Assembly (NCBI GenBank): GCA_027603945.1
Contig: JADIIU010000061.1
Coordinates: 16,386-80,385, forward strand
From: Terramyces sp. JEL0728
Taxonomy: Eukaryota; Chytridiomycota; Chytridiomycetes; Rhizophydiales; Terramycetaceae
DNA: 64,000 bases
Reading direction: 5' to 3'
In this document: piece by piece, positions 34,114 to 36,749 of the stretch
How the letters are laid out: the number at the start of each line of letters is the position of its first letter
Numbering within the stretch: the first letter of the stretch is position 1
Position numbers and translations under genes: made by a program
Notes under the pieces: generated by a model
Seen by the model: only the letters and a program-made list of their open reading frames with translations
Database searches by the model: none
Told to the model about the DNA's origin: nothing

Positions 34114-35164
34114 ATGTCCTCACTTCCATGGGTTGAAAAATATCGTCCAGCTTCACTCGATGATCTAGTATCGCACAAAGATATTATATCTACCATTACC
34201 ACATTCATGGATCAAGATAAACTGCCGCATTTGCTGTTGTATGGACCGCCAGGTATTATTATTTTAACAATAGGTACGGGCAAGACATCAACTATCCTTG
34301 CGTGGTAAATTATACTAATGTCAGCGCTAGAACTTTATATGGGAACAATTTCAAACCCAAAGTGCTGGAATTGAATGCATCTGATGATCGTGGGATAGAT
34401 GCCGTCAGAGAACAAATCAAAACATTTGCGTCTTCAAGGATTACTACTTGGGAAAAGACTTCAAGAGCAGTCCCTTACAAATTGATTATCCTTGATGAAG
34501 CAGATGCATTAACTCAGCAAGCCCAAAATGCACTGCGAAGAGTTATTGAGCAGTACACCAAAACTACAAGATTCTGTTTGATTTGTAATTACGTCAACAA
34601 GATTATTCCTGCTCTACAATCCAGATGTACCCGTTTCAGATTTGCACCGTTGGAAATTGATCAGATTGACAATAGACTTCAAATCGTATTAGATGCGGAA
34701 GGCGTCAACATTACAAGTGGTGGAAAGGAAGCCTTGTTGGAGCTGTCTAAGGGCGATATGCGAAAAGCTCTCAACATCTTGCAGTCTTGCCATGCAGCGA
34801 ATGATTTGATTGACCAAGACGCAATTTATCAAACTACAGGCTCTCCACATCCGTCTGATATTAAACAAATTGTTGATTGGCTACTCAATTCGGATTTTAC
34901 CGAATCTTATTCCAGTATACTTGTCCTAACATAGACATTTGCCAGCTACAAGTGGAAAAGGGATTGGCCGTCAGCGATATTTTGACGCATATTTTCCGGT
35001 TGGTCAGTGGGTTAGATATGCCTCAAAAAAGCCGGATTTATCTGATTCAAGAATTGGCAGATATAGAATACAATTTGTCTGTTGGCTGTTCGGACAAGAT
35101 TCAACTGAGCGCTCTAGTAGGTGCTTTCAAGAATAGTATTGATATGACTCTTGTACTTCGCTAA
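34114..35164 (+). CDS. RFC3: Replication factor C small subunit (yeast Rfc3 / human RFC5 type)
   Basis: AAA+ clamp-loader subunit that helps load PCNA. About 329 aa after three introns. LPWVEKYRPASLDDLVSHKD is specific to the RFC5/Rfc3 branch. Walker A GPPGTGKTS is restored by removing a 21-nt intron that splits it; Walker B is LIILDEADALT, sensor 1 FCLICNYVNKIIPALQSRC (SRC arginine finger motif). C-terminal helical collar includes EYNLSVGCSDKIQLSALVGAF. The second intron follows ILAC; the third (20 nt) joins ESYSN to ICQLQVEKGLAV. Stop is within TAAATAAA. Confidence 0.93.
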
Positions 35165-35244: not shown

Positions 35245-36749
35245 ATGGAGGAACTAAAGTGCGACCAGTGTGATAAGCAAGCGCACTTCATGTGCTCATT
35301 GTGCAACAGCAGCAAATACTGCTCAACTGATTGCCAAAAACTGGACTGGCCAGAGCACAGGAAAACCTGTCCTGAATACCTTCGACGAATGCAGGAACCA
35401 GAACCAGAGGAAACCGAAGAAGAGAAAATACAGAATATAAAGTTTTATGTAGGACAATTATATACCATCCTTAAACCAGTAACATTAACCATATTAACCT
35501 CCATTTTGTGGGTGAAACTCAATAACCCTTCAACTCCATATTTTGCGACTAATGAAATGTAATTTTAAACTAATGCAGTCCTCGACAAGCTGCCTCTGTT
35601 GGAACTTCATTTGGGACGTCTGGAAATTCATCTTCGGATAATCAGCAATCTTTGATAATTGCTGGCATTATTATGGGACAAATTGTAGTGGCGACTGTTG
35701 TTATGGCATGTTTGTTTAGATATGGACAAGTCAAAATTATATACGGGATTCTTGGAGTGCTAATTTTGATGTTACTTGGATTATTTGGATACCAATTGGC
35801 ACTTATGCTGCTGACTATTTCCAATATTCCATTTGACTGGATTAGTTTTGTATTTTGTTTGTGGAATTTTGTTGCAGTTGGCCTCGCTTCTATTTTCTGG
35901 AAAGGTCCTCAGTTACTGCAGCAAGGCTATCTGGTATTGATGTCATCAATGATGGCATTCTCCCTATCGAGCTTACCTGCTCTGGTAACTTGGATTTTAC
36001 TTGGTTTCTTGGCTGTTTGGGACTTGATTGCGGTTCTATGTCCCTATGGCCCTCTTAGAATCATGCTGGAGTCTGCACAAAAGAACAATACTGAATTGCC
36101 TGCCGCGTTGATCTACTCGGCCATGGTTTGGGTCGGTATGGCTTCTCCACCAAGTCCTCGGCATCCACTTTCTACCCCTGCTCAAATATCCCCGCTAGAC
36201 TTGCCTGAAGCATTGGATGTGGATGAAATCATTCAAGAAAAACCCAAAGTCGCAGTTGTGGATCCCTCTAAAGAATTGCAAAACGATATTCCAGCGTCCG
36301 ACCTTTCCAAAGACAACGCTAATGATGTGACTGATAATTTGGAAACCAAGCGATTGACTTCTGAAATCGAAATGACAGAGCTAAACAGAGATGGACAAGT
36401 AGTAGAACAGGAGGAGGAAGATGACGAAGAAACCGGACTCAAGCTAGGATTAGGCGATTTTGTGTTTTATTCTGTGCTGGTTGGAAGAGCTTCATTATAT
36501 GATTGGATTACAACCATTATTTCCATTTTGGCAGTACTTTCCGGTCTGGTTCTAACCATCTTTATCCTGGTTCTGAAAAGAAAACCTTTGCCTGCTCTTC
36601 CAATATCAATCTTTTTCGGGATTATCTTTTTCTTGGTTGCTTCATTGACTCTCTCCCCAATGATGACAGATTTAGTCGTAAGCAATGAAGTTGCACCAAG
36701 AGGGACTCTGAGTGCGGGACTGCTTGGAGAAGGGTTTGTGTATTTGTAA
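35245..36749 (+). CDS. Presenilin with N-terminal MYND zinc finger
   Basis: Intramembrane aspartyl protease of the presenilin family (catalytic core of gamma-secretase), about 494 aa, one 20-nt intron (35559-35578). Residues 6-42 form a complete MYND finger (C6, C9, C17, C20, C26, C30, H38, C42; KYCSTDCQKLDWPEH). An acidic linker leads into TM1 (YTILKPVTLTILTSILWV). Presenilin motifs follow: FWKGPQLLQQGYLVLMSS, first catalytic Asp in VWDLIAVLCPYGPLR (D253; WD instead of the usual YD), an acidic cytosolic loop (about 290-390), second catalytic Asp in LGLGDFVFYSVLVG (D398) and the PAL motif in PLPALPISI (443-445). The MYND finger and TM1 lie in one uninterrupted exon (35245-35558), so the fusion does not depend on splicing. 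The C-terminus extends about 18 residues past the usual family end. Confidence 0.9.

Follow-up and report, generated by a model that had tools for sequence, protein, structure and literature searches.

The closest described relatives of the gene treated here are the presenilins (PSEN1 and PSEN2; PF01080), the catalytic subunits of gamma-secretase, and the MYND zinc fingers (PF01753) of the transcription regulators AML1-ETO (CBFA2T1), DEAF-1 and ETO2. To our knowledge, the presenilins of human, fly, worm, plant and Dictyostelium carry no such finger. In the window analysed, a stretch of 64,000 nucleotides from Terramyces sp. JEL0728 (Chytridiomycota, Rhizophydiales), a presenilin gene on the forward strand (35245–36749) encodes a MYND finger at the N-terminus of the enzyme. 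Gamma-secretase had been thought to be absent from fungi, as stated in the available portion of one study (PMC10406608), and the available portion of another reports presenilin to be absent in the four fungi studied (PMC2770060). The MYND fingers of ETO and DEAF-1 bind corepressor peptides of the PPPLI type, for which Met512, Glu514, Thr516, Gln529 and Trp533 of DEAF-1 are named in the part of the source that was available (PMC3555993). Within the open-licence PubMed Central (PMC) literature, the matches listed contained no description of a MYND-presenilin, papers holding both words being judged by title and the start of the abstract, and no paper on a role of gamma-secretase in fungi; the word MYND does not occur in the main text of PMC13294678.

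The Terramyces gene and its product

The join of MYND finger and presenilin in Terramyces is real, with a match far beyond chance. Exon 1 (35245–35558, forward strand) contains the start codon, the finger, a short acidic linker, the first transmembrane segment (TM1) and the start of the first loop, and exon 2 (35579–36749, forward strand) contains the rest of the presenilin including the stop codon. Between them lies an intron of 20 nucleotides (35559–35578, forward strand; GTAATTTTAAACTAATGCAG) with a CTAAT branch-point-like string inside, the removal of which restores the frame and yields the public protein exactly. The spliced product has 494 amino acids and no internal stop, and is identical over its whole length (100%) to the public model HDV01_006378 (P0001) of the same organism. 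Reading of the open frame places the finger and the TM1 helix together in exon 1, in one frame and with no stop between them. The coordinates, the eight zinc ligands, the single exon for finger and TM1 and the catalytic motifs given in an earlier note on this DNA thus all agree with frame reading, Pfam and alignment to human PSEN1, and the hidden stop or frame break that could have separated the two parts is absent from exon 1. A search of the Terramyces genome returned one presenilin locus, the one in the window.

The finger spans residues 6–42 (35260–35370, forward strand) and matches the zf-MYND profile (PF01753) with 37.3 bits against a cut-off of 22.7 (E 2.9e-9). All eight ligands of the C4-C2HC arrangement are in place (C6, C9, C17, C20, C26, C30, H38 and C42) and follow the spacing of DEAF-1; the predicted structure gives the beta-beta-alpha fold seen in the described fingers. 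The finger ends about 15 residues ahead of a predicted helix (residues 58–93; 35416–35523, forward strand), which aligns to the TM1 region of human PSEN1 and holds TM1. The profile of ZMYND11/ZMYND8-type MYND fingers (PF24324) scored 21.0 bits on the protein, below its curated cut-off of 27. Ten other MYND places in the genome were compared with the family profile (seven scored 21.5–33.1 bits, two less than 10 bits, and one had no match), and no donor for the finger was identified among them.

The presenilin profile (PF01080) covers residues 67–467 (342.9 bits against a cut-off of 34.3, E 3e-102; profile positions 2–408 of 408), so that the entire domain is present. The TM6 catalytic motif is W252-D253 (36018–36023, forward strand), at Y256-D257 of human PSEN1, and D253 is kept in at least 90% of 64 aligned sequences. 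The second catalytic aspartate, D398, lies in the GLGDF motif (residues 395–399; 36447–36461, forward strand) at D385 of human PSEN1 and is invariant in the same alignment, while the PAL motif (residues 443–445; 36591–36599, forward strand) is kept in at least 90% of it. Between the two aspartates, the large hydrophilic loop (residues ~284–394; 36114–36446, forward strand) is disordered in the model, with a predicted local distance difference test score (pLDDT) below 50 at residues 284–318 and 320–390. The predicted structure has nine long transmembrane helices in the presenilin fold, and nicastrin, Aph-1 and PEN-2 are all encoded in the Terramyces genome, each above its Pfam cut-off. On these grounds the protease part is apparently intact. 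The protein differs from PSEN1 and PSEN2 in its N-terminal finger, in WD replacing the human YD and in a longer C-terminal tail.

Intron-like strings of the form GTR...YTRAY...AG with a length of 19–21 nucleotides occur 81 times across both strands of the window, against about 24 expected under a first-order model; the presenilin intron, in agreement with the public protein, fits this very short class. Upstream on the same strand lies a replication factor C small-subunit-like gene at 34120–35164, the stop codon of which precedes the start of the presenilin gene by 80 bases. It apparently also requires an intron, of 21 nucleotides and located by eye within the P-loop codons.

Occurrence of the finger among presenilins

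The earlier note named no described presenilin of this architecture and regarded presenilin itself as rare among fungi-like lineages. The view that the architecture is special to this organism, or rare, gave way once presenilin homologues were searched for an N-terminal MYND finger, as that note had proposed: the finger is present in 93 of 151 listed presenilins, 79 by a strict pattern and 14 more by a family hidden Markov model (HMM), which rules out a fusion unique to Terramyces. The 151 distinct sequences combine the best 120 of 880 matches with the best 120 of 2343 matches to a second query, a finger-less aphelid presenilin; both searches began from fungi, so that the proportion of 93 in 151 does not extend to presenilins generally. 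Finger-bearing members of the list span six fungal phyla and one aphelid, a group placed within the kingdom Fungi by NCBI, and the fusion runs across many fungi outside Dikarya. The statement that no presenilin of this architecture had been described holds insofar as no paper describing one was among the matches listed; both domains already stand on many of the listed sequences in the protein database's precomputed Pfam column, and UniRef labels several entries "MYND-type domain-containing". As far as could be seen, the Terramyces protein is an ordinary member of a conserved, apparently undescribed fungal form of presenilin.

Counted on a tree of 91 sequences (60 of the 151 were omitted, being near copies, fragments and some others; phyla were assigned from names, with four species checked), the finger occurs in 23 of 35 Chytridiomycota, 5/5 Blastocladiomycota, 3/3 of Basidiobolus and Syncephalis, 6/7 Glomeromycota, 10/13 of Mucoromycotina with Calcarisporiella, 3/7 Mortierellomycota, one of two aphelids and 5 of the 15 remaining sequences, and in neither Gonapodya (0/1), Piromyces (0/1) nor animals (0/2). 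The proteins of Globomyces (P0003), Basidiobolus (P0030), Rhizophagus (P0026), Mucor (P0079), Blastocladiella (P0131) and Amoeboaphelidium (P0114) share domain order with that of Terramyces and belong to the same family by sequence. Among the 14 proteins recognised by the HMM only, six start at a methionine within the finger (P0007, P0010, P0076, P0099, P0127 and P0128) and look as if an upstream exon had been missed; others lack the last ligand (P0093, P0117), have a histidine in its place (P0078, P0087) or are broken in the second half (P0105). Two models carry further domains, PF06094 in P0028 of Rhizophagus irregularis and PF00514/PF02985, presumably armadillo/HEAT repeats, in P0012 of Polyrhizophydium; each could reflect either a merger of gene models or an additional fusion. 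Querying with the aphelid N-terminus (P0114, residues 40–145) for finger-bearing presenilins outside fungi returned only P0114 itself among 18 candidates scored, which is uninformative on absence elsewhere.

No finger was recognised in 58 of the listed presenilins, models from Boothiomyces, Geranomyces variabilis, Podila epicladia and Umbelopsis vinacea among them. In 21 of these the protein is at least 70% identical to a finger-bearing relative and the match starts downstream of the relative's finger; in Boothiomyces, for example, it begins at residue 49 of Terramyces. Judged by such matches, the 21 look like shortened gene models or partial records; some of them have a short N-terminus of their own, and a true loss is therefore possible there. 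The other 37 comprise seven animal or animal-like sequences (three of Trichuris, one of Ptychodera and three animal-like), nine of the Neocallimastigomycota type, Gonapodya and its relative P0110, three fragments, two with the tail of the finger only, three aphelid-like sequences and 11 others; the survey has no named member from nucleariids, choanoflagellates, Filasterea or other protists. In the Neocallimastigomycota type (P0066, P0094, P0104, P0107, P0108, P0112, P0115, P0116 and P0145) the N-terminus that stands in for the finger is long, in many cases rich in Asn, and probably helical. Piromyces is the named member of this type and three more group with it in the tree; resemblance of the N-terminus placed the other five, except P0108, which was included because its match is nearly identical to that of P0107. 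In both the Neocallimastigomycota type and Gonapodya the finger seems to have been truly lost. Finger-less relatives in the 64-sequence alignment keep the presenilin motifs.

Motifs between the finger and TM1

The linkers of other fungal and aphelid MYND-presenilins are mostly longer than that of Terramyces, and some contain a second conserved motif. The pattern AQ[VILWFM][IV]N occurs between finger and TM1 in 19 of the 151 proteins (P0010, P0011, P0014, P0024, P0026, P0028, P0029, P0031, P0032, P0048, P0064, P0080, P0096, P0101, P0106, P0109, P0111, P0127 and P0133), mostly inside RGRGN[AVI]AQ[VIL]IN-like strings about 64–110 residues ahead of a WVK-like mark at the end of TM1. Its carriers are chytrids, Glomeromycota, Umbelopsis, Calcarisporiella and Syncephalis, and for five of the 19 proteins the gene model is finger-less. 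Shuffled N-termini gave a mean of 0.05 sequences and a maximum of two in any of 200 shuffles, a contrast somewhat flattered by the pattern having been picked after some of the sequences had been viewed. In Mortierellomycota, the string RRRP[RQ]LTPEQ directly before TM1 (e.g., at residue 178 of P0036) matches PxLxP. This motif is found in 21 of 85 linkers against 1.2 expected in shuffles, an enrichment that arises through Mortierellomycota alone: they account for 23 of the 25 proteins with an N-terminal PxLxP, the other two being P0050 (with finger) and P0019 (without finger). The short linker of Terramyces contains neither AQxIN nor P[RQ]LTP, and Terramyces likewise has no N-terminal PxLxP.

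History and function of the fusion

A tree built with a quick method on 389 presenilin columns follows the fungal groupings and sets the animals apart at a support of 100. Distances between fingers correlate with those between the presenilins that carry them (r 0.63 for 45 of the 79 sequences with a full finger, not reached in any of 1000 permutations), as expected if both had been inherited jointly. The simplest history would be one ancient fusion before the split of aphelids from other fungi, followed by losses.

We consider it somewhat probable that the gene product is the catalytic subunit of a gamma-secretase of fungi, and that the MYND finger at its cytosolic N-terminus was passed down from an early ancestor among the fungi. 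As established for PSEN1, presenilin has its N-terminus in the cytosol, and the finger should therefore face the cytosol near TM1 and stay on the N-terminal fragment once the protein has cleaved itself in the loop. By contrast with the fingers of AML1-ETO, DEAF-1 and ETO2, that of Terramyces is tied to a membrane protease. The presenilin would assemble with nicastrin, Aph-1 and PEN-2 into a complex that cleaves membrane proteins, and the finger may bring a substrate or regulator to the enzyme by binding a short, proline-containing peptide in that partner's cytosolic part. For the finger itself, such putative peptide docking is favoured, because three of the five DEAF-1 positions, aligned by cysteine spacing (H14, M16, S18, Q31 and W35 in Terramyces), are kept in kind (S18, Q31 and W35), and because in BS69 peptide binding is largely lost upon mutation of the glutamine and tryptophan at the positions equivalent by spacing, according to the available portion of the source (PMC4742278).

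Several observations weigh against this proposal. Two of the five residues contacting corepressors in DEAF-1 and ETO are changed, Met512 to H14 and Glu514 to M16, and the retained glutamine and tryptophan do not prove peptide binding because both are common in MYND fingers generally. Loops could be excised from 80 of the 93 finger-bearing and 45 of the 58 finger-less sequences, and the finger-bearing ones show no enrichment of a PPL-type ligand in either loop or linker (in the loops, PPL occurs in three of 80 against 1.9 expected, and PPP[LIV] in none). As to inheritance, when finger status is taken as recorded, parsimony on the 91-sequence tree requires 21 changes, against 28.1 in shuffles, and the tree alone therefore does not show a single origin, which depends on reading many finger-less models as shortened. 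Identity among the fingers averages 49% with ten positions fixed by the search pattern and 32% without those ten; the latter value lies close to that for the N-terminal region as a whole (29%) and under that for presenilin (48%). Finally, some of the 58 presenilins without a recognisable finger probably lack it truly, so that the finger is not essential to every fungal presenilin.

A rather unlikely alternative to docking of substrates is that the finger serves trafficking, stability or scaffolding, linking presenilin to a cytosolic protein that sets the location or lifetime of the complex, with no direct role in substrate choice. That the finger-less relatives keep the presenilin motifs would agree with this, since catalysis then need not depend on the finger, and the long linker with a second conserved motif in many lineages is as expected for several binding sites; however, there is no known partner, and the present evidence does not separate such a role from substrate docking. 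Binding in cis, by which the finger would gate the enzyme by holding a peptide in the linker or loop of the same presenilin, appears distinctly improbable. Its attraction is the PxLxP motif just before TM1 in Mortierellomycota, which is a known ligand of the BS69 finger and is enriched in the linkers, yet the dominance of Mortierellomycota reduces this enrichment to about one event, Terramyces lacks the motif, and the loops contain it in seven of 80 cases against 1.8 expected, with kinship ignored. Moreover, ETO and DEAF-1, the closest solved fingers, fail to bind the PXLXP ligands of BS69, according to the available portion of PMC3555993, and PPP[LIV] occurs in two of 45 finger-less loops against 0.2 expected, whereas no finger-bearing loop has it. 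An artefact of assembly or gene prediction, by which two neighbouring genes were read as one, could be imagined since the Terramyces gene is known from DNA and a gene model, and since some models of the family look merged (P0028, P0012) or shortened. With finger and TM1 in one exon and one frame without a stop, and with this order repeated across separate genomes that represent six fungal phyla and one aphelid, this explanation is exceedingly improbable; the separate genomes largely refute it, and it was rejected.

Beyond the proposed docking role, a broader view is tentative and in our estimation possible rather than probable: non-Dikarya fungi may run a distinct class of gamma-secretase, whose catalytic subunit has its own cytosolic docking platform, formed by the MYND finger and often the RGRGNxAQxIN-like motif. 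This class would have arisen once, before the split of aphelids from other fungi, would pick or deliver substrates by cytosolic peptide motifs, and would have been lost in the line of Neocallimastigomycota and Monoblepharomycota in favour of a helical or plain tail.

Significance

The gene belongs to a variant form of an intensively studied protease that extends across much of the fungal kingdom, and for which the function of the finger is put forward as a proposal. A finger that is conserved and placed on the cytosolic side of the catalytic subunit offers a direct handle on the complex, both as a bait for partners and substrates and as a removable part with which to probe the purpose of the complex. 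If the proposal is true, these fungi would possess a natural gamma-secretase with a built-in recruitment domain, which would bear on how the human enzyme selects among its many substrates.
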